40,656 nucleotides of DNA from Desulfobacula sp. (GTDB taxonomy: Bacteria; Desulfobacterota; Desulfobacteria; Desulfobacterales; Desulfobacteraceae): contig NZ_JAQYWD010000045.1 of the NCBI RefSeq assembly GCF_030145145.1, positions 1 through 40,656 of the forward strand. The letters run 5' to 3'. The notes beneath the pieces were generated by a model. That model was not told where the DNA came from. It saw only the letters and a list, made by a program, of their open reading frames with translations, and ran no database searches. Both the position numbers and the translations under genes were made by a program. The first letter of the stretch is position 1; the number at the start of each line of letters is the position of its first letter. Shown piece after piece: positions 21,082-35,858 of the stretch.

Positions 21082-22398
21082 TCAATACAGCAGGTTGGGC
21101 AGAAACAAAATGATCTGTGGAAACAGGATCAGAATGATGACGCCCACAATCAATGCGGCCAGAAAAGGAATCACGCCCTTGAAGATTGTCTCCAGCGGAA
21201 TGGTTTGCCGGAACACGGTCTGGGCCACGCCATAAACCACGTACACGTTGATGCCTATGGGCGGGGTGATTACCCCCATCTGGGTGATCATGACAATCAT
21301 CACCCCGAACCAGACGGGATCATACCCCAACTGCTGGACCACGGGATAGAAAATGGGCACGGTCAGGGTGACAAATGCCAGGGCATCGATAAAACAGCCG
21401 CCGATGAGATAGATGATCAGAATCACGCTCATGACCAGCACGGCGGGAAGGTCCAGACCGGCCACCCATCCGGCGATTTCAAAGGGGATTCGTGTCACGG
21501 CCAGAAATTTGCTCAGGATCACGGCCCCCACGATCAGCATCATGACCATGCAGGAGGTGCGAAGGGCCTCCAGAACGGAATTTACAAATCCCTGCCAGGT
21601 GAGCTGCCGTCTGACCAAACCGATCAGCAGAACACCGAAGGCACCTATGGCTGCGGCTTCCGTGGGTGTGAACAAGCCTATGAAAATTCCCACAATCACC
21701 AGGGCAAAGACCGCCAGAGTTTCGCCTAAACCCATCAGGGATTTCAGCTTTTCCGTCCATGAAAAGGATTCACCCGGGGGACCCTGCTCCGGGGAAATGG
21801 TGCATCGGATATAAATGCACAAAATGAACAGCAGCGTGATCAGCAGGGCCGGAAAAATGCCGGCCACAAACAGCGCCCCGATGGACTGCTGGGTTAAAAT
21901 GCCGTATATGATCAGCACCACGGACGGGGGCATGATCATGCCGATGCTGCCCCCGGAGGCCACGGAACCGGTGGCCAGTTCATCGTCATAATTGTACCGC
22001 TTCATTTCCGGCAGCCCGATGGTGGCCATGGTGGCGGCAGTGGCCGGGCTGGATCCGCACACGGCTCCGAATGCGGTGCACGCGGCCACCGTGGCCATGG
22101 CCAGCCCGCCTCTGATATTGCCTAGAAATTTATACCCGGCGTCATACAGCCGTTTGCTGATACCTGAATTGAATCCCAGCTGGCCCATGAAAATGAACAA
22201 GGGAATGGTGGACAGGTCATAGGAAGCCAGGGTTTCATACACTTCTAGAGACAGCAGGGCCAGGCCGGCATCGATATTTATGACATAGGAGAATCCCACA
22301 TATCCCACCAGGGCCATGACAAATGCCACGGGCATTTGTGTCAGAAACAGTGCCAGCATGAAAACAATGCCGATAATACCGATGAGTGTCGGGCTCAT
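21082..22398 (-). CDS. dctM: TRAP transporter large permease (DctM family)
   Basis: A 438-aa protein with about 12 membrane segments. It has the DctM features IPLFIFMGQLGFNSGI, the strongly conserved CGSSPATAATMATIGLPEMK and PPSVVLIIYGILT. It forms the sodium-coupled translocation channel of a TRAP transporter with DctQ and DctP. Its ATG overlaps the DctQ stop by four bases (22395-22398), showing translational coupling. The ligand cannot be inferred reliably from the permease. Confidence 0.96.
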   Translation of the reverse strand: MSPTLIGIIGIVFMLALFLTQMPVAFVMALVGYVGFSYVINIDAGLALLSLEVYETLASYDLSTIPLFIFMGQLGFNSGISKRLYDAGYKFLGNIRGGLAMATVAACTAFGAVCGSSPATAATMATIGLPEMKRYNYDDELATGSVASGGSIGMIMPPSVVLIIYGILTQQSIGALFVAGIFPALLITLLFILCIYIRCTISPEQGPPGESFSWTEKLKSLMGLGETLAVFALVIVGIFIGLFTPTEAAAIGAFGVLLIGLVRRQLTWQGFVNSVLEALRTSCMVMMLIVGAVILSKFLAVTRIPFEIAGWVAGLDLPAVLVMSVILIIYLIGGCFIDALAFVTLTVPIFYPVVQQLGYDPVWFGVMIVMITQMGVITPPIGINVYVVYGVAQTVFRQTIPLETIFKGVIPFLAALIVGVIILILFPQIILFLPNLLY

Positions 22399-22889
22399 TT
22401 TGAATCTCCTTTCCGCAGTTCCACAATATCAAGACAAATGGTTTCCAGAATGGTGATGGAAAAAAGCAGTAACCCGAAACCCAGGATATAAGCGATATAA
22501 TAGGTGGGGAATTTCAAGCTCATGGATACTTCCCCCGTCTGTCTGAGTTCCGCCGCATGCAGAAACATCTGCCATGTGATCAGTCCGAACAGAAACAGTG
22601 TTAAAGTCCGTGTGATCAGCCCGACCCAGATTTGGGTTTTTCGGGAAAAGGTCTGCATCAGAATTTCAACGCCCACATGGCCGCCTATTTTGTATGTATA
22701 GGGCAGGACCCCTGCCACGATGATGGTTGCCAGAAACCCGACGATTTCAACCGATCCGAATATCGGGTGTTTGAAAAACCGCCCGATGACATCCACCACA
22801 GTCAACAGCATCATGCCGACCAGGGCGATGCCGCCGATAAGTTTCATGGCGTTGGATAGTTTGTTCAGTGCCAGAGCAATCTGTCTCAT
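22395..22889 (-). CDS. dctQ: TRAP transporter small permease (DctQ family)
   Basis: A 164-aa protein with four membrane segments and typical DctQ motifs: VVDVIGRFFKHPIFGSVEI, and GHVGVEIL near the second helix pair. It partners DctM in the membrane complex. An AGGAG site precedes the ATG; it lies 30 bases after the DctP stop and overlaps dctM. Confidence 0.94.
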   Translation of the reverse strand: MRQIALALNKLSNAMKLIGGIALVGMMLLTVVDVIGRFFKHPIFGSVEIVGFLATIIVAGVLPYTYKIGGHVGVEILMQTFSRKTQIWVGLITRTLTLFLFGLITWQMFLHAAELRQTGEVSMSLKFPTYYIAYILGFGLLLFSITILETICLDIVELRKGDSK

Positions 22890-22919
22890 TAAAAACTCCT
22901 GTATATTGGAAGATACGGG

Positions 22920-23924
22920 TTATGGCTGTTGCAGACGGGCTTGGATGAAATCCACAACCACTTTGCCGTCAATGCCTCTTTTTGCCACGGATTGAATATA
23001 GTTTTCTAACAGGACCGATGATTTTTCAGCCCAGCGTTTTGATTCCTCATTGGTCTGGGAAATCACGGTGCCGCCTTTGGACAGAAAAAACGCCATGCCT
23101 TTCTTGTCCGCCTCATCCCAAGCCTGTCCGTGTTTCAGTGCGTATTCTTTGTTGATGCGTGTGAAAATTTCCTGCTGTTTCGGGGTCAATTGATGCCATC
23201 TTTTCTGGTTCATGAACACGGCAAAGGTGGTGGTATATCCGCTGGAAAAGTTCTGGATCATATATTTGGCCACTTCTCCCAGTTTCCAGCCGTGGTTGGC
23301 TTCGACGGGATGGGCTGACCCGTCCACCACGCCTCGGTGGAGCATCTGATAGGTTTCCGCCATGGACTGGCCCACAGGCGTCCCGCCCAGGGCGGCGATG
23401 ACTTCCCCGCTGGTGCCGGTTCCCCGAATTTTCAGGCCTTTGAGATCCGCAAGGCTATGGATGGGTTTGTTCCGGGTATGAATGACACCGGGTCCGTGGG
23501 CATGCAGATACATTACTTCGGTATTGTGCAGCTCTTCCGGATCGAACCGTTCCAGCACCTGGTTGGCCACGGCAGTAGCCTGGACCCCGGAGGTGTATCC
23601 CATGGGCAGGTCAATGGCTTCCAGCACCGGAAACCGGCCCCGGGAATAGCCGATGGCCGTCATGCCGATGTCCGCCACCCCTTTTGCCACGGCAGTATAA
23701 GTCTGTTGGGGCCGGGTCAGGGTAGAGGCCGGAAAATAGTTGAATACAATCTCGCCGTGGGTCTGTTCTTCAATTTCTTTGCACCAGCGTTCCGCCAGTT
23801 GACTGTGAACATGGGTGGGCGGAAAAAAGTTGGAATAGGTCAGCCGCATCTGAGCCCCGGCCGGTTGGATCAGAAAAAAAGTGGCACAGAAAACCAGAAA
23901 CAATGGAACCGATTGTAAGCGCAT
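22920..23924 (-). CDS. dctP: TRAP transporter substrate-binding protein (DctP family)
   Basis: A 334-aa periplasmic protein with a signal peptide (LFLVFCATFFLIQPAGAQ). DctP signatures include FFPPTHVHSQLAERWCKEIE, the binding-pocket region LADLKGLKIRGTGTSGEV and GVVDGSAHPVEANHGWKL. These proteins bind organic acids, usually through a conserved Arg in LKGLKIR. GAGGAGG precedes the ATG at 23924. It is the first gene of dctPQM. The three genes are visibly GC-richer than their surroundings and lie between transposase remnants, suggesting transfer. Confidence 0.95.
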   Translation of the reverse strand: MRLQSVPLFLVFCATFFLIQPAGAQMRLTYSNFFPPTHVHSQLAERWCKEIEEQTHGEIVFNYFPASTLTRPQQTYTAVAKGVADIGMTAIGYSRGRFPVLEAIDLPMGYTSGVQATAVANQVLERFDPEELHNTEVMYLHAHGPGVIHTRNKPIHSLADLKGLKIRGTGTSGEVIAALGGTPVGQSMAETYQMLHRGVVDGSAHPVEANHGWKLGEVAKYMIQNFSSGYTTTFAVFMNQKRWHQLTPKQQEIFTRINKEYALKHGQAWDEADKKGMAFFLSKGGTVISQTNEESKRWAEKSSVLLENYIQSVAKRGIDGKVVVDFIQARLQQP

Positions 23925-24429: not shown

Positions 24430-25247
24430 ATGGAAGCGATATTTTTATCATTTTGTTTCATTTTTTTGATGATTGTAATGAATCGATATCTTGTCATCGA
24501 GAACCTTGCTCTTCGTCAACAACTGGCTATCGTGAAACAGCATGGCAACCGTCCAAAAATCAGAACTCGTGACAGAATTCTCTGGGTATTTCTTTGCAGG
24601 CTCTGGAAAGACTGGAAAAGTGCTTTAATCATTGTTCAGCCAGAAACGGTAATCCATTGGCACAGAAAAGGATTTAAACTGTTTTGGAAAGCTAAATCGA
24701 GGAAAAGACGGGTAGGGCGACCTTCTATTGATTCCGATATCCGTAAACTCATTGAAAGCATGGCCAGGGCAAATCCTCTTTGGCGTGCACCACGGATACA
24801 CGGAGAGTTTATGAAGTTGGGAATTGAAGTTCATGAAAGGACAGTTTCTAAAATCATAAAGAAGTTCAGAACCGGCAAACCCCCATCCCAGACGTGGAGA
24901 ACATTCATGAAAAATCAGATGTTCAATACCTTTGCCATTGATTTTTTTAAAGTGCCGACTGTAACCCCCCGCAAAATCCCTGGCAAAATCCTTATGGTGA
25001 AAGATTGATCGGCAGCGTGCGTCGTGATTGTCTGGATCACATGATTGTTTTGAATAAAAACCATTTGAGGCGAATATTAACAGCCTATTTGGGTTATTAT
25101 CATGATGACAAAACCCACCTTGGTCTTGATAAAGACACACCATCGGGACGATCAGTCCGGGAAAAGTGTCTGAAAAATTGTAAAGTGATTGCTTTGCCGC
25201 GTCTCGGAGGCCTTCACCATCGGTATGAATGGCGAAAATCTGCATGA
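24430..25247 (+). pseudogene. Integrase-core transposase with internal deletion
   Basis: The first part (24430-25008) has an N-terminal membrane-like helix typical of this group, ENLALRQQLAIVKQ, RRVGRPSIDSDIRKLIESM and the first catalytic Asp in NTFAIDFFKVPTVT. The second part (from about 25001, frame-shifted) starts at RLIGSVRRDCLDHMIVLN and ends GGLHHRYEWRKSA. The about 70 residues normally between, carrying the second Asp and the approach to the Glu, are missing and the frames no longer join. Full-length relatives read VERLIGSxRRECLDHxIVLN. It is a nonfunctional copy at the left of an IS-rich stretch. Confidence 0.85.
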
Positions 25248-25924: not shown

Positions 25925-26284
25925 TCAAAACCTACTTAGAAGGTATTCATGTGTTGATATGATGCTGGATTTAAAACGGCCTTCCCATAAACTGCCTGAT
26001 GGCTTTGCAGTTTTATTAATATAGCGCGTCTGTCTTCCTGCGACACCCTTCATGAACTGGGAAAGTGCTGCTGGATCTTTGCCCGGATCAATGATGATCT
26101 GGACATGATTGGTCATCAGACAATACGCATATATTTTACACTCGGTTTTTTCTTTGAATTCTATCCGGTTGGTTTTGTGGTATTCAAAATCGTCATCCCC
26201 ATTGAATACAGTATCACGATTATGACCACGCCGCATGATGTGGTGCGGAGTTTTGGGTAATATGATCCTTCCTTGTCTCGGCAT
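25925..26284 (-). pseudogene. 3'-truncated REP-associated tyrosine (Y1) transposase
   Basis: 119 residues match the N-terminal half of RAYT/IS200-like transposases: MPRQGRIILPKTPHHIMRRG, then CLMTNHVQIIIDP and SLWEGRFKSSII. The usual metal-binding motif NHVH reads NHVQ, so the second His is Gln. The conserved tyrosine helix (TRYINK) is present. After EYLL the normal continuation is replaced by a stop, so roughly the last 80-100 residues are lost. A hairpin at 26353-26388 lies just upstream, as expected for a RAYT recognition element. Confidence 0.75.
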
Positions 26285-26496: not shown

Positions 26497-27909
26497 TTAA
26501 ATTTTCACCATAATATGTCGAACCACTGTGTAATCTTCCAGCCCATACATGGAAAGATCTTTTCCATATCCAGACATTTTAAATCCCCCATGGGGCATCT
26601 CTGACGCATACATGAAATAAGTATTGATCCATGTTACACCAAACTGCAGCAGGGATGATACCTTGTGCGCCTTTTGAATATCCCTGGTCCAGATAGACGA
26701 AGCCAACCCGTATTTACAGTCATTGGCCCATTCAACCGCCTGATCCGTATTGCTGAACCGGGTGACGGAAACCACCGGCCCGAAGATCTCTTCCTGAACC
26801 ACCTCATCATCCTGAAGCGCATCAACAATCAGGGTCGGCTCATAATAGCACCCGCGATCAATCTTGTTGCCGCCGGCAGTAATATTAAGATGGGGAATTG
26901 TTTTAGTCCGTTCGACAAAGCCACTGACGGTTTCCCGCTGCTGCTCGGAAATCAACGGCCCGATGTCATTAACGTCAATCCCTTTTACCGACGCTGTCAG
27001 CTTTTCTACCACTTCCTGATAAATGTTGTCCTGAACATACAACCGGCAGGCTGCCGTACAATCCTGTCCGGCATTGTAATATCCCCATAATGTTATATTT
27101 TCAACCAGATCATCAACGTCACAATCATCAAATGCAATCACCGGCGCTTTACCCCCCAGTTCCAGATGGGTGCGTTTGACATTGGATGAGGCCGATGACA
27201 ACACCTGCTTTCCGGTGTTTACCGAACCGGTTACCGAAACCATTTGAACCTTATCATGGTCTGCAATTTGTTTTCCGACAGCACGTCCTGTTCCCGTGAC
27301 AATGTTGAGCACACCCGCAGGAAAAAGTTCGATCATATCGTCAGCCAGGGCCAGCATGGTCAATGGTGTATTTTCAGACGGCTTAAATACGACCGTATTA
27401 CCGGCAGCCAGAGCCGGGGCAATTTTCCAGGCTGCCATCATTAAAGGATAATTCCATGGGGCAATCTGTCCCACAACCCCCACCGGATCTCTTCTGATCA
27501 TACTGGTAAATCCCTCAAGGTATTCACCAGAAGCACTGCCGGACATACAGCGTGACGCACCTGCAAAGAATCTGAAATGGTCGGAAATGGCCGGTATCTC
27601 ATCCTCCAGCATCCGCTGATAGGGTTTACCGCAGTTGAGTGATTCCAGCTTTGCCAGGAACCCGGCTTTTTCATCAATCCGATCGGCCAGCTTGAACAAT
27701 CTGTCTGCCCGGTCTGCAAAAGATTTTCTTTTCCATCCGGGAAAAGCCGCATTGGCGGCTTCCACAGCCGCATCCACCTGATCCGCTGACGCCGATGGCA
27801 CGTCGATTATCAATTCATTATTTTCCGGACTGATTAGAGCGATTTTTTCAGACTCTCCCAGCACTTTTTTCCCGTTTATCAGAAGATGGGTATCTATTTT
27901 TTCTATCAC
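26497..27909 (-). CDS. Aldehyde dehydrogenase, gamma-aminobutyraldehyde/betaine-aldehyde type
   Basis: A 470-aa NAD(P)-dependent aldehyde dehydrogenase with catalytic C284 in GQDCTAACR and general base E250 in LELGGKAP. The signatures FFAGASR, MIRRDPVGVVGQIAPWNYPL and GYYNAGQDCTAACRLYVQ are closest to 4-aminobutyraldehyde dehydrogenase (PatD/YdcW) and related betaine-aldehyde enzymes. It would oxidise an omega-amino (or omega-trimethylamino) aldehyde to the acid in the cytoplasm. Its ATG overlaps the aminotransferase stop by four bases, and it is the last gene of the metK-to-ALDH unit. Substrate is inferred from family and context. Confidence 0.93.
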   Translation of the reverse strand: MIEKIDTHLLINGKKVLGESEKIALISPENNELIIDVPSASADQVDAAVEAANAAFPGWKRKSFADRADRLFKLADRIDEKAGFLAKLESLNCGKPYQRMLEDEIPAISDHFRFFAGASRCMSGSASGEYLEGFTSMIRRDPVGVVGQIAPWNYPLMMAAWKIAPALAAGNTVVFKPSENTPLTMLALADDMIELFPAGVLNIVTGTGRAVGKQIADHDKVQMVSVTGSVNTGKQVLSSASSNVKRTHLELGGKAPVIAFDDCDVDDLVENITLWGYYNAGQDCTAACRLYVQDNIYQEVVEKLTASVKGIDVNDIGPLISEQQRETVSGFVERTKTIPHLNITAGGNKIDRGCYYEPTLIVDALQDDEVVQEEIFGPVVSVTRFSNTDQAVEWANDCKYGLASSIWTRDIQKAHKVSSLLQFGVTWINTYFMYASEMPHGGFKMSGYGKDLSMYGLEDYTVVRHIMVKI

Positions 27910-29276
27910 TGGTTCTCCTTTTTTCTTTCATTCGTTGTCGCGATGATACTCTGCCTTAGAATATTGACAATCTGATCTACGCCTTCTTTTTCAATAATTA
28001 ACGGCGGCGACAATATACATAAGTTTTCATAGGGCCGGACAATGAGCCCATTTTCCTGGCAGAATTCATCCACTCTTTGGGCAACGGCGATATTCTCCTC
28101 TTCATTGTCTGAAACCACACACTCTACACACGCCATCAGACGGATCCCTCTGACATCGCCCACAATGGATAACTCACGTAAGGTTTCCAGGCGCTCCATG
28201 AAGTAGTCCCCCACTTCCCGTACATGCTCATTTATCTTTTCCCTCTCCATAATCTCAAGATATTTTAAGGCTGCCGCGCAGGTCACCGGATGGCCGGAAT
28301 AGGTGAATCCGTTTGTGTAATATGAATTTTCACTGGCCGACGGTCCGCTGATGCGATTCACCAGTTTTTCAGATATAATGGCAGCCCCCAGGGGCTGATA
28401 ACCGGAAGAAATGCCTTTGGCCACGGTAATAATATCCGGAACAATGTCAAAAACATTTTCAGACGCAAAATAATGCCCCAGTCTTCCAAACGCCGTCACC
28501 ACCTCGTCCGAGATATAGAGCACGTCATATTTTCTGCAGATCTCCAGGGTTTTTTTGTGATATCCCGGCGGCGGGACAATCACACCGCCGGACCCCATGA
28601 CAGGTTCTGCAATGAAACAGGCGGCATTTTCCGGCCCGAGCTGTAGAATCTTCTGCTCCAGTTCGCTGACCCGGAGGTCGCAGAACTCTTCGACACTCAT
28701 TCCCGCAGGCCGTTTAAACGGATTGGGATCAGGAATGGAATGAACCATATCTGTAATATAATTAAAATAGCTTCTGTCACATTTTTTACCGTTCAAGGAA
28801 GCGCTTAGATAAGTACTGCCGTGATAGGCGTTCTCGCGGTAAATAATATGCTTTTTTTCTGGCTTGCCCAGGCAGTTAAAATAGTAATGGGCAAACCGGA
28901 TGGCCGATTCAACCGCCGTGGAACCGCTGTTTGTAAATTGAAAGCAGTTCAGGTCACCGGGGGTTAACCGGCTCAACTTATCTGCCAGTTTGACCGAGGG
29001 AGGGCTTGTCATGGCCCCAAAGGGTGTGTAGTATGCCAGCTGAACACACTGGTCGGCAATCGCATTTGCCATTTCCCTGTTTCCATACCCCAGATTGACA
29101 CACCACATGCCTGAGATCGAATCAATATATTGATTGCCTGCATCGTCAAAGACATGAATCCCTTTGCCGGATTCAATCACCATGGATTCAGCATCACTTC
29201 CCAGATCCGACCACGGATGGATAATGTGCTTTTTGTCTTTTTGAGCAAGCGTCATATTCTCTTTTTTAAAATTCAT
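27906..29276 (-). CDS. Class III PLP aminotransferase (omega-amine/putrescine-type)
   Basis: A 456-aa fold-type I aminotransferase. The PLP lysine is K287 in TVAKGISSGYQPLGA, with ISDEVVTAFGRLG (PLP-binding Asp) and NSGSTAVESAIRFAHYY before it. Class III enzymes transfer terminal amino groups from diamines or omega-amino acids to pyruvate or 2-oxoglutarate. AAAGGCGG precedes the ATG at 29276. It lies 10 bases after the decarboxylase and overlaps the dehydrogenase, which fits a diamine to amino-aldehyde to amino-acid route. Confidence 0.93.
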   Translation of the reverse strand: MNFKKENMTLAQKDKKHIIHPWSDLGSDAESMVIESGKGIHVFDDAGNQYIDSISGMWCVNLGYGNREMANAIADQCVQLAYYTPFGAMTSPPSVKLADKLSRLTPGDLNCFQFTNSGSTAVESAIRFAHYYFNCLGKPEKKHIIYRENAYHGSTYLSASLNGKKCDRSYFNYITDMVHSIPDPNPFKRPAGMSVEEFCDLRVSELEQKILQLGPENAACFIAEPVMGSGGVIVPPPGYHKKTLEICRKYDVLYISDEVVTAFGRLGHYFASENVFDIVPDIITVAKGISSGYQPLGAAIISEKLVNRISGPSASENSYYTNGFTYSGHPVTCAAALKYLEIMEREKINEHVREVGDYFMERLETLRELSIVGDVRGIRLMACVECVVSDNEEENIAVAQRVDEFCQENGLIVRPYENLCILSPPLIIEKEGVDQIVNILRQSIIATTNERKKENQ

Positions 29277-29285
29277 AGCCGCCTT

Positions 29286-30494
29286 TTAAATTAATAGGTT
29301 TTCTGATACCACGCCCCGCATACAGTGATTCGACATCATGGACGACGCATATCCGCCGGCATTGATAAACACAAGCGGATCCCCTTCCTTTATCTGATCG
29401 GGCATGGGAAAATTGTCTTTCCATACATCCAGGGATTCGTTGATATTGCCGACAATGGTAACCGGTTTCATCAGATCTGTTTTCTGCCTGTGCACAACAG
29501 GTTCACAGGGCAGCCCATAGAACGTCGGCTCAATGGCCAGATTAAATCCGCCGTTCACACCGACAAAATCAGTATTCCGCTTTTTCTCGACGGTATTCAC
29601 CTCCAAAACCAGGATTCCACTGTCTTTAACAATATAATCCCCGGATTCAACACAGATGGTAATGCCTTTGCCATCAAAATGGGTATTGATAACAGACACC
29701 CAGGCATCCAGGTTTAACGCCTCGTCATCACAGTCATGGGGAACCCCCAGGCCGCCGCCAAGGTTAACGAACGCCAGATCCTTCACATTGTCCAGAAACC
29801 ACTGCGTGGCTTCTAAAATTTCACTGAATATTGACAATTGATTGTTCAGATATCCGCATCCGGTATGAAAATGGATGGTATCCACGATAAAGTGATTTTC
29901 TGCAGCCAGCTGGAGCGCCGCTTTAAACTGCTCCCTGTAAATGCCGAACTTGGTGGTTTTATCGCCGCTGTATTTTAGGGTCTCATTATCCCTGTATCCA
30001 ATCCCCATCGCCGGATTGACCCGGATGCCGATTTTCCGGTGGGAACAGAATTTGCCCAGCCTGCGAATAGTGCTTAACGAATCACAGTTTAAAACCACAT
30101 CCGGATTGTTGGCCAGCAGCTTCAGTTCCTCATCTGTCATGGAGTTGGCTGTATATGAAATCTCATTGGGTATAAAACCGCAGGAAAAGGCATGGAGCAG
30201 CTCGTTGGGAGAACAGACATCCACACCGCATCCACCCGTGTCTTTGATATGGGTCAAAAGCGGGGCAAACCGGTTGGCTTTTATGGCATAAAAAATCTTG
30301 TGAGATTCCAGTTGATCCAGAGCCGTATGGAGCCGCTCGATATTTTGTAATATCCTTTTTCCCGTATAAAAGAAAGCAGGGGTGCCGGTTAAACCGATCA
30401 AATCCGTCACTGATTCCCCGGAAAAAAACAGATGGCCGTCTTTATAGCAAAGATCCTCTCTTTCCCACCACAGACGCTCTTTTTGTGAGCTCAT
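29286..30494 (-). CDS. PLP-dependent basic-amino-acid decarboxylase (LysA/ODC, fold type III)
   Basis: A 402-aa alanine-racemase-fold decarboxylase. The PLP lysine is K72 in FYAIKANRFAPLL; other motifs are FHTGCGYLN, NLGGGLGVP, ESGDYIV and the C-terminal INAGGYASSMMSNHC. The family decarboxylates diaminopimelate, ornithine, lysine, arginine or carboxynorspermidine; the C-terminal loop differs from classical LysA (DAGAYxxSMxSNYN), so the substrate is uncertain. The start at 30494 overlaps the SET gene stop in ATGA and has GGAAGTG upstream; an ATG at 30569 lies inside the SET gene. Translational coupling to the SET protein suggests the two act together. Confidence 0.9.
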   Translation of the reverse strand: MSSQKERLWWEREDLCYKDGHLFFSGESVTDLIGLTGTPAFFYTGKRILQNIERLHTALDQLESHKIFYAIKANRFAPLLTHIKDTGGCGVDVCSPNELLHAFSCGFIPNEISYTANSMTDEELKLLANNPDVVLNCDSLSTIRRLGKFCSHRKIGIRVNPAMGIGYRDNETLKYSGDKTTKFGIYREQFKAALQLAAENHFIVDTIHFHTGCGYLNNQLSIFSEILEATQWFLDNVKDLAFVNLGGGLGVPHDCDDEALNLDAWVSVINTHFDGKGITICVESGDYIVKDSGILVLEVNTVEKKRNTDFVGVNGGFNLAIEPTFYGLPCEPVVHRQKTDLMKPVTIVGNINESLDVWKDNFPMPDQIKEGDPLVFINAGGYASSMMSNHCMRGVVSENLLI

Positions 30495-30967
30495 CCACAC
30501 TTCCTTTCCAGCTCCTGAAGATACTTCTGGCCCGAGGAATTGATCGATTCTTTTCGACCGGTCACCCATCCCCGGCAGTTAATCGCACCGCAGGCACAGG
30601 GAAATTGTTTGAACAATACGTCCTCGGTCTGGGCATAATCCATTGTCAGCGCCACCCCTTTTTCAATATCCTGCAATGCCCAGATTTCAAGTTTATTCAT
30701 ATCCAGAGAGACCAGCGGATCACATGAATGCAGTAAAAGCCCAGTAAAATGGGGATCATACAGTTGAAGAAACGGGTTAATCTGAAGGGTGTGCTGAAGA
30801 ATATACGGCACGGTTATCCCGGCCATCCTGGCCACCATCTCACCTTTTTTAAAACGTCGGTTCACATAAATCCCGCTGCCGGTTGTTTCACAATGGGTAA
30901 CCGTAAAATCTTCTTCATTTGGATAGTTTCGGCCCTCTTGCAATTCATATTCACAAGGGTAAATCAT
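30491..30967 (-). CDS. Small SET-domain methyltransferase with post-SET Cys motif
   Basis: A 158-aa protein. SET motifs are GSGIYVNRRFKKGEMVA (N-terminal), LLLHSCDP (position 80-83, replacing the usual NHSCxPN) and ALTMDYAQTED with the catalytic-type Y111. A post-SET cluster CxCx4C (C124, C126, C131 in PCACGAINCRGW) could bind zinc with a fourth Cys. SET enzymes transfer methyl groups from SAM to lysine side chains. It lies in an operon with SAM synthetase and homocysteine-forming genes and overlaps the decarboxylase gene. The substrate may be a protein lysine or, more speculatively, a small basic amino acid or amine. AGAGGTG precedes the ATG. Confidence 0.88.
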   Translation of the reverse strand: MIYPCEYELQEGRNYPNEEDFTVTHCETTGSGIYVNRRFKKGEMVARMAGITVPYILQHTLQINPFLQLYDPHFTGLLLHSCDPLVSLDMNKLEIWALQDIEKGVALTMDYAQTEDVLFKQFPCACGAINCRGWVTGRKESINSSGQKYLQELERKCG

Positions 30968-31067
30968 AACACCTCTCTTTAAATATTTAGATATTGTGGT
31001 GAATCATCACCATACAAATAATTTTTCTAACCATCTGTTTTTTATAATTAAAATTGCACTTATCATA

Positions 31068-31493
31068 TCAGAACATGGACGTGCAGGCGCCAAAAGGACA
31101 GCTTTCGATACAGCAGAGACACTCGATACATTTATCCCCATGGAAATCGATGGGTCTTGATCGATTATCCTTTACATAGAGTGCACCGGTGGGGCAGTGA
31201 GGAACACAATTGCCGCATCCGGTGCATTTATCTTTATTCCATAAAAGAGTGTTCATGGTCAGGTTCACATCAATCTCGAAAGAACGTATAAACTCCAGAC
31301 CGTCCTCTATTTGGGACTCTTCACCGATAATATCAATGGCAATATATCCTTTTTCATTCGGTGTAACCTGGGCTCTGTATATATTTACTTCAAGTTCATA
31401 TTCTCTGATCAGTTCGGTGATAATCGGCTGTCCGCCAATAAATCTGGGAAAGGTCAGTACGACTCTTCTCTTGACTTGTTCTATGGTATTCAT
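31068..31493 (-). CDS. NIL-domain ferredoxin of the direct homocysteine pathway
   Basis: A 141-aa protein. The N-terminal NIL domain (RRVVLTFPRFIGGQPIITEL, residues about 9-75) precedes two 4Fe-4S clusters, CTGCGNCVPHCP and CIECLCCIESCP. Paired NIL-ferredoxin and DUF39 proteins are needed for homocysteine formation from aspartate semialdehyde in Desulfovibrio and methanogens, where the ferredoxin presumably supplies electrons or handles sulfide. The ATG overlaps the DUF39 gene stop (31490-31493). A 100-base gap without features separates it from the SET gene. Confidence 0.92.
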   Translation of the reverse strand: MNTIEQVKRRVVLTFPRFIGGQPIITELIREYELEVNIYRAQVTPNEKGYIAIDIIGEESQIEDGLEFIRSFEIDVNLTMNTLLWNKDKCTGCGNCVPHCPTGALYVKDNRSRPIDFHGDKCIECLCCIESCPFGACTSMF

Positions 31494-32686
31494 CTTTTTT
31501 CTCCCTGGGTTTTTACATCAAGCGGAGACATTCTCTGGCTAACAGGAAGCCTCTGAAACGGCATGCTCAACAAAAAATCTCCTTTTTTAATTTCTTCTTT
31601 AAGCCGTTCGGATATCTCAAATGCTTTTGAATAGGAAGACAGCGACCCGGTTGTCACTTTCTTTCCATTCACTTCTACTCTTCCACTTCGCAGATCAGCG
31701 TAAGACTGCCTTCCGAGAATATCGCCATGCCTTTCCGGATATGCGGTGGAATAGTCAATGACTTCGGCAAATATTTCACTGTCGCGTACGGTACAATACC
31801 GAAGAATCTCTTTATCGAGTATGGGTATCGGGACACCGACCCCCAAGGCGAGGGATACGCCGTATCCTTTCAGGCTGACGCCCCGGACAAATTCGCTGTC
31901 CATCTCTTTCATGTCCCCGGTCAGTGCAAGTGTTCCGGCACCTTCCATCGGCACATCATTATCCCCTCTGAGGCAGTCCGACGCGTGCTGCGTCCCTGGG
32001 GCATACACATGACCGTGCGACCCTGCAAGCCAGACGCTGGTTCCCACCCCAATGGTTCTGTATAACGGGTCATTCAGCAGAGGAGAAAGCTGCCCTGCCG
32101 AACAATAGGTGAGGTTTTTCATCTTGGGTTTTAATTCACCCAGATAAGTATAAATCGGCTTATCACTGCAATTGATAGCCACATTATAGTTCTGGTAGCA
32201 GTTGCGGGGATTGGTCATAATGGCCTGATTCAGATCGTCTATTGTGAAATACGTTCGGATCTCTTTTAGTGGATATTCATCAGTGCCGTATGATCGGGCA
32301 GATAACTCCAGCTCTTCGCCTGCCACCAGTTTCTCCATCACATGTCCGCCGCCGAATAAAAAATCACCCGGATAATATTTATTGGCAGGATCATTCTGCT
32401 TTAACTGTGTTGCCCCAAGGTATACATCGACCGCAGCAATACCGCCGTAAGCCATTACATCATCAATCCAGGCTTCAGTCATCCGCATCTTCGGCTTGGA
32501 ATGGCCAAAGTTGAGAAAGCATCCTGAAGAACACATCGGACCGAAAGTGGCTGTTGTTACCACATCAACTTCAGCTGCGGCCTTATCAAGTCCCTTCTGA
32601 TCCACGTAGTCGATCACTTCATCTGCGGTTAGGACGACGGCCTTTCCCGATGCTATTTTACGGTTAATCTCTTCGTATGTTTTCAT
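31490..32686 (-). CDS. DUF39 homocysteine biosynthesis protein
   Basis: A 398-aa protein of the DUF39/HcyBio family, with conserved Cys in VVTTATFGPMCSSGCFLNFG, NPRNCYQNYNVAINCSD and GDNDVPMEGAGTLALTGDM. It converts aspartate semialdehyde plus sulfide to homocysteine with its NIL-ferredoxin partner in organisms lacking the canonical MetA/MetB route (known for the family). An AGGGGG site precedes the ATG. Located between metK and the NIL-ferredoxin gene, it would feed methionine and SAM supply. Confidence 0.92.
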   Translation of the reverse strand: MKTYEEINRKIASGKAVVLTADEVIDYVDQKGLDKAAAEVDVVTTATFGPMCSSGCFLNFGHSKPKMRMTEAWIDDVMAYGGIAAVDVYLGATQLKQNDPANKYYPGDFLFGGGHVMEKLVAGEELELSARSYGTDEYPLKEIRTYFTIDDLNQAIMTNPRNCYQNYNVAINCSDKPIYTYLGELKPKMKNLTYCSAGQLSPLLNDPLYRTIGVGTSVWLAGSHGHVYAPGTQHASDCLRGDNDVPMEGAGTLALTGDMKEMDSEFVRGVSLKGYGVSLALGVGVPIPILDKEILRYCTVRDSEIFAEVIDYSTAYPERHGDILGRQSYADLRSGRVEVNGKKVTTGSLSSYSKAFEISERLKEEIKKGDFLLSMPFQRLPVSQRMSPLDVKTQGEKR

Positions 32687-32799
32687 AAATCCGGCCCCCT
32701 GTAGTTACAGCTGTCTTTTTAGTGTCATAAGATTGGGCAAAACCACGCTTGCCATTAATTCTACACATCATCAAACTCCCACAAGCCCATCAAAATCGT

Positions 32800-33987
32800 T
32801 TATTCGCCAACCGCTTCCTTGAGGGCCTGGGCCTTGTCTGTCTTTTCCCAGGGGAATTGCTCCCGCCCGAAATGACCGAGGGCCGCCGTATCCTGATAGC
32901 TCCAGCCGTTGGGGCGTGTGAGATCAAGATCCCGGGTGATACCGGCCGGCCTGAAGTCGAATATCTCACCACTCTCCAGAACCTCCTGAATCCTCGAAGG
33001 TGCAACACTGGATGTTCCAAAACACGCCACATTAACACTCAGGGGTTTGGCAACACCGATGGCATAGGCCACCTGGATTTCACATTTATCTGCCAGGCCA
33101 GCACTCACAATATTTTTTGCTGCATATCGGGCATAATAGGCGGCTGAACGGTCTACCTTGGAAGGATCTTTGCCGCTGAATGCCCCGCCGCCATGGCAGC
33201 CGACACCGCCATAGGTGTCCACAATAATCTTTCTGCCGGTCAATCCGGCGTCTCCGTGGGGGCCGCCGATAACAAATTTGCCGGTTGGATTGATATAGTA
33301 TTGCGTATCATCATCAAGCAGTTCGGAAGGACCGAGCAGATCTTTGGAGACCTGGATCAGGTCGGCCCGAATCTTTTCCAGGGGAATGTCATCGGTCTGG
33401 TGCGAGATGACCACCGAAGTGATCCGTTTGGGCATGCCATTTTCATGGAGCACCGAGACCTGGGTTTTGGCATCAGGCCTGAGATATTTGATATCCCTCT
33501 CTTTACGAATCTTTTGAAGCCCGGCAAGAAGCTCATGGCTGTAATGGATGGGCGCCGGCATCAGCGAACTGGTGGCATTGGTTGCGTAACCGAACATCAT
33601 GCCCTGGTCACCCGCGCCCTGTTCCGAAAAGAGTCCTTCTCCCTCGCTGACCCCTTGGGAAATATCGGCAGACTGTGGATGAATCCGGCATAGATATTCA
33701 AAATCGTTACAGCAGAATTTGAGTTCTGCACGGTCGTATCCAATATCCCGGATGACCTTTCGGGCAACGGCTTCCGGAGATATTTCATCCCACCCACGGC
33801 ATGTAATCTCTCCAATATTGATCATGAAATCAGTTGTCACGGCCGTCTCACAGGCCACACGGCTGGCCGCATCTTTTTCCAGACAGGCATCTAAAATGGC
33901 ATCCGAGACCTGGTCACAGATCTTATCCGGATGGCCTTCGCTGACAGATTCGCTGGTAAATACATGATCGGTTTTCAGCTTGCTCAT
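32800..33987 (-). CDS. metK: S-adenosylmethionine synthetase
   Basis: A 395-aa MetK of normal length. ATP/methionine motifs are FTSESVSEGHPDKICDQVSD, GAGDQGMMFGYA near residue 120, KTQVSV, and the P-loop-like GGGAFSGKDPSKVDRSAAY. It makes SAM from methionine and ATP. AAGGAATAAAT precedes the ATG. A sigma-54-type promoter lies about 105-120 bases upstream and a sigma-54 activator gene is divergent, which is unusual control for metK. A second housekeeping metK elsewhere would be expected if this copy is pathway-specific. Confidence 0.97.
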   Translation of the reverse strand: MSKLKTDHVFTSESVSEGHPDKICDQVSDAILDACLEKDAASRVACETAVTTDFMINIGEITCRGWDEISPEAVARKVIRDIGYDRAELKFCCNDFEYLCRIHPQSADISQGVSEGEGLFSEQGAGDQGMMFGYATNATSSLMPAPIHYSHELLAGLQKIRKERDIKYLRPDAKTQVSVLHENGMPKRITSVVISHQTDDIPLEKIRADLIQVSKDLLGPSELLDDDTQYYINPTGKFVIGGPHGDAGLTGRKIIVDTYGGVGCHGGGAFSGKDPSKVDRSAAYYARYAAKNIVSAGLADKCEIQVAYAIGVAKPLSVNVACFGTSSVAPSRIQEVLESGEIFDFRPAGITRDLDLTRPNGWSYQDTAALGHFGREQFPWEKTDKAQALKEAVGE

Positions 33988-34089
33988 ATTTATTCCTTTT
34001 TTACTTGCTCAGGTTTATTATCATTGAACATTTTCTTTGACGGTTGTTTTTCCGGCAACGGTAATGCACACTAACTCCTGCCAGGGCTT

Positions 34090-34105
34090 TGCAACACCTG
34101 TACCA
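34090..34105 (-). promoter_or_regulatory. Sigma-54 (-24/-12) promoter ahead of metK operon
   Basis: The minus strand reads TGGTACAGGTGTTGCA. It keeps the essential GG and GC doublets at the right spacing and matches TGGCACG-N4-TTGCW except at two positions (T for C, A for G). It points toward metK and lies in the intergenic region shared with the divergent sigma-54 activator gene. The motif AGTGTGCAT also occurs between it and metK, at 34064-34072 on the minus strand. Confidence 0.65.
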
Positions 34106-34235
34106 GACACAGATACCCCTCAGGAAAACAACCGCATCTCATTGATTTCATACATCTTTAAAATAATTATAACGAACCGGGTGGAAAGGATTCGACCTGA
34201 TTACACCCTTTTTTATCCGAACATGGGCAAGAAGA

Positions 34236-34269
34236 GCACACTTCTGATATAAATCCAATATAAGTGTGC
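34236..34269. promoter_or_regulatory. Dyad, candidate activator site for the metK promoter
   Basis: Perfect 8-base arms GCACACTT (34236-34243) and AAGTGTGC (34262-34269) are centred about 150 bases upstream of the -24 element. The half-site AGTGTGCAT recurs at 34064-34072, and a related TTGTGCA dyad lies at 34417-34435. A run of six T follows the right arm, so a terminator cannot be fully excluded, but the position between divergent genes argues for an operator. Confidence 0.5.
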
Positions 34270-34416
34270 ATTTTTTACACAAACCTATTTTCTGCCCTAT
34301 CCCCTGGCAGTGTTAAAAAAAACCTTATCAAACACTTGCATTTCCCTATTTTAAATGATAGTTACGCTCAAAACATAATCGAGTTGAACAAGGAATATTT
34401 TATTCCCATGGTCAAA

Positions 34417-34435
34417 TTGTGCACATTATGCACAA
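34417..34435. promoter_or_regulatory. Perfect 19-bp dyad in the leader of the sigma-54 activator gene
   Basis: TTGTGCACATTATGCACAA has 7-base perfect arms and a 5-base centre. It lies 35 bases ahead of the chosen ATG at 34470. It shares the TGTGCA core with the dyad at 34236-34269, so it may be an autoregulatory site for the same activator. Confidence 0.5.
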
Positions 34436-34469
34436 GCCAACATTCATACATCCCGCAAGGAGCACCCCC

Positions 34470-35858
34470 ATGGAGGGCGAACACATACCTGCCAGAATTA
34501 TATGCGTTGACGACGGCAAAGTTCTGGCAGAACAAGTCAAAACCATTTTTGATAACGATGATGTAACCATCGCTTATGAACGAAATCTTGAAGCTGTGGT
34601 GGACCGGTTTGAACGGAACCGGTTTGACCTGATGCTCTTTTCCGGCGCTGTTGCCCGCAACCAGCAGGCCGATGCATTGGATGTACTGGAGCTGATCTCT
34701 GTTAAATGCCCCCAGACCCAGATTCTTCTATTTACGGCCCCCGGTTCTTTGAAATTTGCCAACCAGGGGCTAAGAGCCGGCGCCTACCACTACGCCACAC
34801 TGCCCATTACCAGCGAGGAACTCAAACTGCTTATCGGGTCGGCCATGGAGGCAAAACCCCTTCTGGGACCCAACATGCTGCTCAAGGCAGAGACCGAAAA
34901 AAATACGTTTGAACGAATGGTCGGCCGGTCCGCGGTGATGCAGGCGGCCTACCGCCTGATCCGCCAGGCAGCGGTTACAGACATCCCGGTTCTGATTTCA
35001 GGAGAAACCGGTACTGGAAAGGAACTGGCTGCACAAGCCATCCACCAACTGAGCGCGCGCAATGATGCGTCCTGTATCCCTGTCCACATCGCCTCTCTGC
35101 CTCCCGATCTTGTGGCCAGTGAATTGTTCGGCCATGTCAGCGGTGCATTTACCGGAGCAACAAAAATGCGGAAAGGTTGCTTTGAGATGGCTGACGGCGG
35201 CACGGTGTTTCTTGATGAGATCGGCACCATTGATCAGAAAATGCAGGTCAGCCTGCTCAGACTTTTGGAGACCAATGAATTCAGCCGGATCGGCAGCCAG
35301 GAAAATATGCCTGTCAATGTCCGTGTGATTGCCGCCACCAATGCCGATCTTGTCAATGAGATCCGGCTGGGCAATTTCAGAGAAGACCTTTACTACCGGC
35401 TGGACGTCCTCAATATCGTTATGCCGCCCTTAAGAGATCGGAGTGGTGACATCCCTCTCTTGGTGAGCCATTTCATAAAAGAGGCCAGCGAGGATTTTAA
35501 AAAGAAGATCAGAGGGCTCTCTTCGGATTTTATCAACTGTGTGGAATCCTATCCCTGGCCGGGGAATGTCAGGGAATTAAGAAACGTCATCCAGCGCGCT
35601 GTGGTCTCAGCAACTGAGGATATTCTACGAACCCGAAACCTGCCCAACCGGATCAGCCATTACCAGGACAGGGATAATCAGATGACCGTTAAAATAGGCA
35701 TGACCCTGGCCCAGGTTGAAAAAGGACTGATTATCAGGACCCTGGCCCATGCAGGGGATAACCGATCCCGTACCAGTGAAATCCTTGGAATATCCAGGCG
35801 GACCCTGTACAACAAGATGGAGCGGTACGGCATCTCTACTGTCAACTCATCAGGGTAG
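34470..35858 (+). CDS. NtrC-family sigma-54 activator with degenerate receiver
   Basis: About 462 residues. The start at 34470 is chosen because AAGGAG lies eight bases upstream; an ATG at 34419 has none. The N-terminal receiver keeps the acidic pair D14-D15, but the phosphoacceptor position aligns with S58 (FDLMLFSG for xDLVLLDxxMP) and the usual KP loop reads ATLPIT, so phosphorylation is unlikely. The AAA+ module has GETGTGKE, GAFTGATK and FLDEIGT; the C-terminal Fis-type helix-turn-helix is TSEILGISRRTLYNKMERYG. It is divergent from metK, which has a sigma-54 promoter, so it most likely controls that operon, perhaps by ligand or protein binding. Confidence 0.93.
   Translation: MEGEHIPARIICVDDGKVLAEQVKTIFDNDDVTIAYERNLEAVVDRFERNRFDLMLFSGAVARNQQADALDVLELISVKCPQTQILLFTAPGSLKFANQGLRAGAYHYATLPITSEELKLLIGSAMEAKPLLGPNMLLKAETEKNTFERMVGRSAVMQAAYRLIRQAAVTDIPVLISGETGTGKELAAQAIHQLSARNDASCIPVHIASLPPDLVASELFGHVSGAFTGATKMRKGCFEMADGGTVFLDEIGTIDQKMQVSLLRLLETNEFSRIGSQENMPVNVRVIAATNADLVNEIRLGNFREDLYYRLDVLNIVMPPLRDRSGDIPLLVSHFIKEASEDFKKKIRGLSSDFINCVESYPWPGNVRELRNVIQRAVVSATEDILRTRNLPNRISHYQDRDNQMTVKIGMTLAQVEKGLIIRTLAHAGDNRSRTSEILGISRRTLYNKMERYGISTVNSSG

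Follow-up and report, generated by a model that had tools for sequence, protein, structure and literature searches.

In this work we examined a 40,656-nucleotide (nt) stretch of Desulfobacula sp. DNA (contig NZ_JAQYWD010000045.1; hereafter, the window), which belongs to an assembly of 5.66 Mb in 89 contigs and carries a seven-gene operon that we predict to make dimethylsulfoniopropionate (DMSP). According to the list of open reading frames (ORFs) and the sequence, the operon occupies positions 26497-33987 of the minus strand and reads, 5′ to 3′, metK, DUF39, NIL-ferredoxin, SET, a pyridoxal phosphate (PLP) decarboxylase, a class III aminotransferase and an aldehyde dehydrogenase. The features of the locus, with their predicted roles in the metabolism of S-adenosylmethionine (SAM), S-methylmethionine (SMM) and DMSP, are as follows:

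34419..35858, plus strand: sigma-54-dependent activator with an AAA+ domain, a Fis-type helix-turn-helix and an N-terminal receiver (Pfam PF00158, PF02954, PF00072); homologues lie near the cluster in relatives
34090..34106, minus strand: −24/−12 (sigma-54) promoter element CTGGTACAGGTGTTGCA preceding metK, a consensus match only
32800..33987, minus strand: metK, SAM synthetase, cluster-type paralogue (TIGR01034, above cutoff)
31490..32686, minus strand: DUF39/HcyBio homocysteine synthase, for sulfur incorporation (PF01837, 472.5 bits)
31068..31493, minus strand: NIL-domain two-cluster ferredoxin, partner of DUF39 (PF09383, PF00037)
30491..30967, minus strand: BurB-type SET protein, predicted methionine S-methyltransferase (PDB 9L4T, BurB, E 4.8e-43)
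29286..30494 (likely start 30494), minus strand: fold-III PLP decarboxylase, predicted SMM decarboxylase of the BurI/SMMDC type (PF02784/PF00278)
27906..29276, minus strand: class III aminotransferase, predicted DMSP-amine transaminase of the BurD type (NF005447, above cutoff; homologues in type-A clusters, defined below)
26497..27909, minus strand: aldehyde dehydrogenase, predicted DMSP-aldehyde dehydrogenase of the BurE type (NF010000, above cutoff, a family named aminobutyraldehyde dehydrogenase; homologues in 7 of 10 type-A loci)

Pfam and NCBIfam scans agree with the family names of all seven genes, which had been given correctly by an earlier, sequence-only reading of the window. The tight co-oriented packing noted there was also found: three junctions are 4-base overlaps and three are short gaps. 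The gaps measure 113 nt (metK to DUF39), 100 nt (NIL-ferredoxin to SET) and 9 nt (decarboxylase to aminotransferase). DUF39 and NIL-ferredoxin overlap by ATGA at 31490-31493, the aminotransferase and aldehyde dehydrogenase genes overlap at 27906-27909, and SET and the decarboxylase share an ATGA at 30491-30494, provided that the decarboxylase starts with the ATG at 30494. For the decarboxylase the longest ORF begins at 30569, and the corresponding ORF of a relative (L022) begins two codons upstream of the position matching 30494. All four genes of the DMSP methylation pathway (SET, decarboxylase, aminotransferase and aldehyde dehydrogenase) are found within a single unit of the window.

The SET protein is the key to this assignment. 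Against Pfam it shows the SET domain alone, at 25 bits, and it matches no NCBIfam family. A search of the PDB was far more specific: the best match was BurB of Burkholderia thailandensis, with 50% identity over 150 amino acids (aa), and the runner-up matches, histone methyltransferases, started only at 5.6e-07. BurB is described as making SMM from methionine and SAM and as inactive on methylthiohydroxybutyrate (MTHB) and methylmercaptopropionate (MMPA) (PMC12542666). For comparison we used 19 relatives from the order and 80 loci, the best of 113 found in GTDB genomes by two short peptide patterns; since the two collections partly share genomes, their counts are not additive. His72, His93 and Tyr124 of BurB, together with three post-SET Cys residues, are kept in all 81 aligned SET proteins (80 loci plus the window), and the position of Arg133 holds Lys or Arg in 80 of the 81 (Lys in the window). 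The earlier view of the SET protein as a SAM-dependent enzyme acting on a small molecule is supported as well. Taken together, these data indicate that the window protein is most likely a BurB-type methionine S-methyltransferase.

The second key component, the decarboxylase, is a fold-III PLP enzyme of the diaminopimelate decarboxylase (DAPDC)/ornithine decarboxylase (ODC) type. It does not reach the LysA cutoff (TIGR01048; 212.5 vs 297.9 bits), is also below the cutoffs of the other six families listed and scores 81.9 against a DokD cutoff of 700. In place of EPGR and GPxCE, the motifs seen in alignments with three DAPDCs, the window enzyme has ESGD and GNINE. The Cys of GPxCE is catalytic in DAPDCs. 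Among 60 members of the decarboxylase family (window included) this Cys is replaced by Asn in 59, with a gap in the remaining one, and the EPGR position reads EPGD, EPGT, EPGE or ESGD in all 58 sequences shown of the 60. Decarboxylases from four plasmid records carry the Asn/EPGD-type signature as well. On a Rhizobium lusitanum plasmid, a decarboxylase of this subfamily (44% identical) is followed by a gene matching MmtN (PDB 7VVV) at E 3.9e-105. On a plasmid of Rhodovulum P5, a member of the subfamily (42%) has an aminotransferase before it and an MmtN sequence in pieces after it, one piece matching 7VVV at 2.9e-78; an ORF that by eye resembles an aldehyde dehydrogenase comes after the decarboxylase and the MmtN pieces. 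Sphingomonas paeninsulae has the same subfamily beside SET. In Eleftheria terrae, a member (50%) lies in a region of nonribosomal peptide synthetase (NRPS) and polyketide synthase (PKS) genes together with SET, TauD, aminotransferase, 'gamma-aminobutyraldehyde dehydrogenase' and fkbH genes. This region resembles the bur cluster. The structure 7VVV was deposited by the MmtN paper (PMC9135737). Because the decarboxylase subfamily is partnered with two unrelated methionine S-methyltransferases, SET and MmtN, it is best explained as an SMM decarboxylase, and this argument is independent of the homology between SET and BurB. By the same token the window enzyme is best explained as an SMM decarboxylase of the BurI/SMMDC type. 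Among three plant candidates, DAPDC is given as the one closest to SMMDC and BurI, at 27% and 24% (PMC11464771).

On these grounds we consider it highly probable that the operon encodes a complete DMSP factory working by the methionine-methylation route. DUF39 and NIL-ferredoxin would convert sulfide and aspartate semialdehyde into homocysteine, housekeeping enzymes would carry homocysteine to methionine (a metF gene joins the cluster of one relative), and the cluster's own MetK would turn methionine into SAM. The SET enzyme would then transfer the methyl group of SAM to the sulfur of free methionine, yielding SMM, which the fold-III decarboxylase would convert to DMSP-amine; the aminotransferase would produce DMSP-aldehyde and the aldehyde dehydrogenase DMSP. 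The order of decarboxylation, transamination and oxidation is the one that the sequence-only reading had assigned to the last three enzymes, but its basic amino acid substrate gives way to SMM in light of the BurB match and the partnering with MmtN. DMSP would serve as a compatible solute; that it is an osmolyte in this host is our guess.

The four-step pathway itself, with BurB, BurI, BurD and BurE, is published (PMC7496086, PMC12542666), and to call the system undescribed, as had been done, was too strong. The window shares with B. thailandensis the SET-type methionine S-methyltransferase, the decarboxylase, the aminotransferase, the dehydrogenase and the order of reactions. The two differ in that the bur pathway feeds a secondary metabolite, whereas no NRPS was seen by eye in the window, and in that the window adds a sigma-54 activator, its own MetK and its own sulfide-to-homocysteine genes; in addition, its SET protein belongs to another deep clade and its host is a relative of Desulfobacter. 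In B. thailandensis, burB and burI mutants are reported to lose the main malleicyprols, which derive from DMSP, and the burI mutant to accumulate SMM (PMC7496086). In burD and burE mutants malleicyprol production is reported to be lowered but not abolished, possibly owing to housekeeping enzymes (PMC7496086), and this leakiness fits the variable presence of aminotransferase and aldehyde dehydrogenase genes across the clusters described below. With the DMSP clusters of the MmtN type (e.g. that of Novosphingobium sp. BW1) the window has in common the SMM intermediate and, in Rhizobium lusitanum and Rhodovulum P5, the decarboxylase subfamily, but MmtN has an unrelated class I fold and the window methyltransferase is a SET protein. 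The plant route of Spartina (MMT/SDC/DOX) likewise leads from SMM to DMSP-amine; it differs in having MMT, an ODC-related decarboxylase and, instead of a transaminase, a DMSP-amine oxidase (PMC11464771). The Streptomyces mobaraensis enzyme is presented differently in different papers: as MmtN (PMC9135737), as BurB-homologous (PMC12542666) or as 35% identical to BurB (PMC7496086).

The genes at the head of the operon, which had been proposed to supply SAM and homocysteine, do belong to the corresponding families. DUF39 together with a NIL/ferredoxin protein is known from homocysteine synthesis in Desulfovibrio and methanogens, and in D. vulgaris COG2122 is described as also required (PMC5764234). 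No COG2122 gene is present in the operon, which is where we looked for it. In the published system the two families are reported as required for growth without methionine (PMC5764234), whereas the window copy is a second, cluster-bound one. Indeed, elsewhere in the genome there is another metK (54% identical to that of the operon) and another DUF39 (52%). The 25 other genomes of the genus yielded MetK matches in 19 (long matches at 52-55%) and DUF39 matches in 24 (at most 53%), and none of these 25 had a MetK or DUF39 copy of the operon type. In a set of 13 genomes searched for MetK, each of the 8 with a cluster metK has one or more additional MetKs at 51-56% (a partial match in G343), and the 5 without a cluster metK have only one. 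A branch with 100/100 support divides the MetK tree: all 8 cluster MetKs lie to one side of it, along with two copies from outside clusters, and the remaining 14 rows lie to the other. The window's cluster MetK groups with the cluster MetKs of Desulfosarcina-related genomes, Desulfopila and Desulforhopalus (99/97), and its second MetK with genomes of the same family (99/99). Given the second copies and this split, the SAM synthetase and the homocysteine synthase appear to be owned by the pathway rather than to be housekeeping enzymes. The two cluster-type MetK copies found outside a SET cluster are L133 (G100:C7) and L141 (G358:C485). A small class I methyltransferase gene precedes metK in Desulfopila (L049:2582-3223) and in Desulforhopalus (L051:2205-2846, the latter copy recognised by the likeness of its start).

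The seven genes likely form one sigma-54 unit, as the divergent activator and the −24/−12 promoter noted in the sequence-only reading had suggested. The element CTGGTACAGGTGTTGCA lies on the minus strand at 34106-34090, about 100 nt upstream of metK, and scores 20.5 of 22.5, a value equalled or exceeded by 0.3% of 300 single-base shuffles. Same-sense −24/−12 elements (scores 19.5-21.5, shuffle fraction at most 0.007) precede the first cluster gene in all eight relatives' stretches tested, and two control gaps of the window, before DUF39 and before SET, contain none (shuffle fractions 0.74 and 0.80). A weaker element (18.5; shuffle fraction 0.017-0.030) is found on the strand of the activator and also ahead of SET in L022 and L024. 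The activator gene is divergent from the operon, and its product would turn the operon on. In its receiver domain, Ser stands at the expected position of the phospho-acceptor Asp (FDLMLFSGA, read by eye from the translation), and the activator homologues of L043 and L051 have the same Ser; with this residue in all three, the domain may be a pseudo-receiver and the signal perhaps something other than phosphorylation.

The sequence-only reading had proposed a search for co-occurrence of SET and decarboxylase genes across genomes, and the neighbourhood proved to be strongly conserved, beyond what chance would give. A SET protein at E ≤ 1e-15 is encoded in 20 of 389 genomes of the order (own included), representing 8 of 150 genera; one of them, G280, is from the same family and carries the cluster. 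In all 19 relatives the decarboxylase gene adjoins SET. Aminotransferase is found in 10 of them, aldehyde dehydrogenase in 7, metK in 5, DUF39 with NIL-ferredoxin in 5 and an activator homologue in 8; 8 relatives hold the SET-decarboxylase pair only, and L026 is cut at the decarboxylase. Among the best 80 of the 113 loci, decarboxylase and SET are adjacent in 60, with no more than 257 nt between their match ends. Over these 60 pairs the SET and decarboxylase distances correlate (r 0.83, matched by 0 of 999 permutations), with shared organismal history not removed from the correlation.

The loci with the pair can be divided into two types. Type A, in which an aminotransferase accompanies the pair, comprises 10 of the 80 loci, with metK in 6 and aldehyde dehydrogenase in 7. 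It occurs in two clades (each with a Shimodaira–Hasegawa approximate likelihood ratio test, SH-aLRT, support of 97) that differ in gene order: one of Desulfobacterales, the other of Desulfopila, Desulforhopalus, Desulfobulbus rhabdoformis and Thiorhodococcus. Desulfopila IMCC35008 (L049) has the same seven genes in a new order, metK-decarboxylase-SET-aminotransferase-aldehyde dehydrogenase-DUF39-NIL-ferredoxin. In Desulforhopalus vacuolatus (L051) the cluster is joined by metF (methylenetetrahydrofolate reductase, 261 bits), and a homologue of the activator gene is divergent from it. We take the carriers of type A to be marine, estuarine or saline organisms. Type B, the pair without an aminotransferase, accounts for 50 of the 80 loci (L042 and 49 of L053-L120). 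At least 2.5 kb are visible on both sides in 32 of them; missing neighbours mean little in the other 18, where less than 2.5 kb can be seen on one side (L042 and 17 others end at contig edges). Type B is spread over Desulfobacterota (Desulfoluna; Desulfobulbaceae, including a cable bacterium, Candidatus Electrothrix, L086), Alphaproteobacteria (Azospirillum/Niveispirillum), Gammaproteobacteria (metagenome-assembled genomes, MAGs) and Myxococcota. An aminotransferase at least 50% identical to that of the window was absent from all 11 type-B genomes searched (nine had none at E ≤ 1e-80, two had one at 38-41%), and all three type-A genomes searched, own included, have one at 59-100% identity. In type-B genomes, either other enzymes complete DMSP or the pair ends at DMSP-amine.

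Several observations concern other surroundings of BurB-type SET genes. The 20 of the 80 loci lacking an adjacent decarboxylase of this subfamily come from Pseudomonas (11), Pandoraea (3) and Burkholderia/Paraburkholderia (2, where SET adjoins very long ORFs that by eye look like NRPS genes); three more have SET beside or fused to another decarboxylase, and one is at a contig end. In 10 of the 11 Pseudomonas loci (L081 and ten others) the neighbours belong to the same two families (F4, F5). In Pandoraea communis (L073:6500-7654) the SET gene adjoins a PLP enzyme of Cys/Met metabolism, perhaps another fate of SMM. The 558-aa product of L057:4837-6513 is a fusion of a BurB-type SET domain with another fold-III decarboxylase, from a group retaining Cys and EPGR, and the unfused neighbours in L106 and L111 resemble the decarboxylase of L057. 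On plasmid p7 of Rhizobium bangladeshense (L160, 3919-5831) a SET relative (47%) is located between asparagine-synthase-related and S-adenosylmethionine decarboxylase genes. In the window itself, apparent remnants of integrase-type and REP/IS200-type transposases (24430-25245 and 25925-26284, by eye) lie downstream of the operon and may bear on how it was gained. Past them, at 21082-23924, is a set of genes that by eye resembles a DctPQM-type tripartite ATP-independent periplasmic (TRAP) transporter.

A number of findings weigh against the assignment of the operon to DMSP synthesis. The cluster is patchy: none of the 25 other genomes of the genus has the SET protein, and an even draw of the phylum gave 3 of 395 genomes with it, own included. 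In a quick tree, for which the SET protein of L003 (35% over part, taken as another family) was the outgroup, the window protein falls into a seven-row Desulfobacterales clade (SH-aLRT 97), and BurB, with Burkholderiaceae and Pseudomonas proteins, is across a branch of 97, so that the two belong to different deep clades. Two BurB residues, Arg42 and His138, vary among the SET proteins and are Thr and Ala in the window. Since the clades differ and these residues vary, homology alone suggests the SET substrate but does not prove it; nor can specificity be read from side chains, because BurB is described as binding methionine by main chains (PMC12542666). Moreover, with BurB relatives occurring without an adjacent decarboxylase in 20 of the 80 loci, SET by itself is no proof of DMSP. 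The decarboxylase was placed with BurI and SMMDC by family and gene context, and since it is without the Cys and Arg of the three aligned DAPDCs, its chemistry can be no simple copy of theirs. Finally, 3 of the 10 aminotransferase-bearing relatives and 3 of the 10 type-A loci showed no aldehyde dehydrogenase gene in the vicinity of the cluster.

How do other explanations fare against the same data? The sequence-only reading had the SET enzyme N-methylate free lysine or ornithine (or the diamine), with the product processed to a nitrogen betaine such as 5-trimethylaminovalerate or gamma-butyrobetaine. The names of the fold-III decarboxylase, the class III aminotransferase and the 'aminobutyraldehyde' dehydrogenase suit diamine chemistry, and lysine is the target of well-studied SET enzymes (PMC7496086). 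However, the closest characterised SET relative methylates the sulfur of methionine, the same decarboxylase subfamily partners MmtN, DUF39 and metF of the clusters supply methionine rather than lysine, and the decarboxylase is far under the DokD and LysA cutoffs. A literature search (titles and abstracts) on SET methylation of free lysine or trimethyllysine with a decarboxylase brought up no such operon. We consider N-methylation very unlikely and S-methylation of methionine by far the likelier reaction; of the proposed betaine osmolyte, an onium acid that is possibly an osmolyte remains, with DMSP in place of the nitrogen betaine. The other role suggested earlier, in which the SET protein methylates a protein, e.g. 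a pathway enzyme, as a regulator, would agree with the automatic label of such proteins, 'SET domain-containing protein-lysine N-methyltransferase'. It is hardly credible given that the protein specifically matches the family of BurB, which acts on a small molecule, that SET is paired with one decarboxylase subfamily across several phyla and that in L057 a BurB-type SET domain is fused to a different fold-III decarboxylase.

It is also conceivable that the unit ends at SMM or DMSP-amine, with the last two enzymes working in ordinary catabolism of amines. The 50 of 80 loci having the pair without an aminotransferase, 32 of them with 2.5 kb or more visible on both sides, and the 11 pair-only genomes without a close aminotransferase are compatible with such an early stop, but the aminotransferase and, mostly, the aldehyde dehydrogenase share the unit in the window and in both type-A clades, which makes it improbable for this operon. 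More room is left for DMSP being made as a building block, or as a signal or antioxidant, instead of as an osmolyte. DMSP feeds malleicyprol in B. thailandensis (PMC7496086), and the same genes sit in the bur-like NRPS/PKS region of Eleftheria. On the other hand, no long gene resembling NRPS or PKS was seen by eye in the window (1-24 kb without a family scan) or in type-A loci L022, L023, L030 and L048-L051, and the presence of genes dedicated to supplying sulfur and SAM suggests that DMSP is made in bulk; on balance we hold this use of DMSP to be a possible, though not the favoured, one. With similar reserve we entertain a broader idea, in which the SET-decarboxylase pair is a free-standing, widespread two-gene module whose end product, DMSP-amine, is a permanently charged sulfonium analogue of polyamines with a cellular role of its own. 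On this view the window operon would represent an elaboration of the module by sulfate reducers, one that turns respiratory sulfide into an osmolyte.

Returning to DMSP synthesis by the complete operon, the most likely new aspect is a variant one: the occurrence of the known four-step pathway in relatives of sulfate reducers, with a dedicated supply from sulfide to methionine. The BurB-type enzyme has so far been reported from few bacteria, and in the literature that we searched (mostly titles and openings of abstracts, with subscription journals and preprints outside its scope) we saw burB-type DMSP genes reported for no sulfate reducer. In a study of coral skeletons, broad Pfam domains were the basis for assigning dsyB to roughly half of the MAGs, which covered 34 phyla, including Desulfobacterota (PMC9868349). 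If our prediction is true, surveys relying on dsyB and mmtN overlook a class of producers. The decarboxylase signature (Asn for Cys, EPGD) could be used to flag candidate SMM decarboxylases, and a clear test is offered for SET proteins that are now annotated as protein-lysine methyltransferases. The host, by its same-family kinship with Desulfobacter, presumably reduces sulfate itself, and DMSP in sediments may have an overlooked source in strict anaerobes. Should relatives of Desulfobacter, Desulfosarcina, Desulfatibacillum and Desulfopila, as well as Thiorhodococcus, indeed make DMSP, some of them with their own supply from sulfide to methionine, sulfate respiration and the cycle of DMSP and dimethyl sulfide would be joined within one cell.

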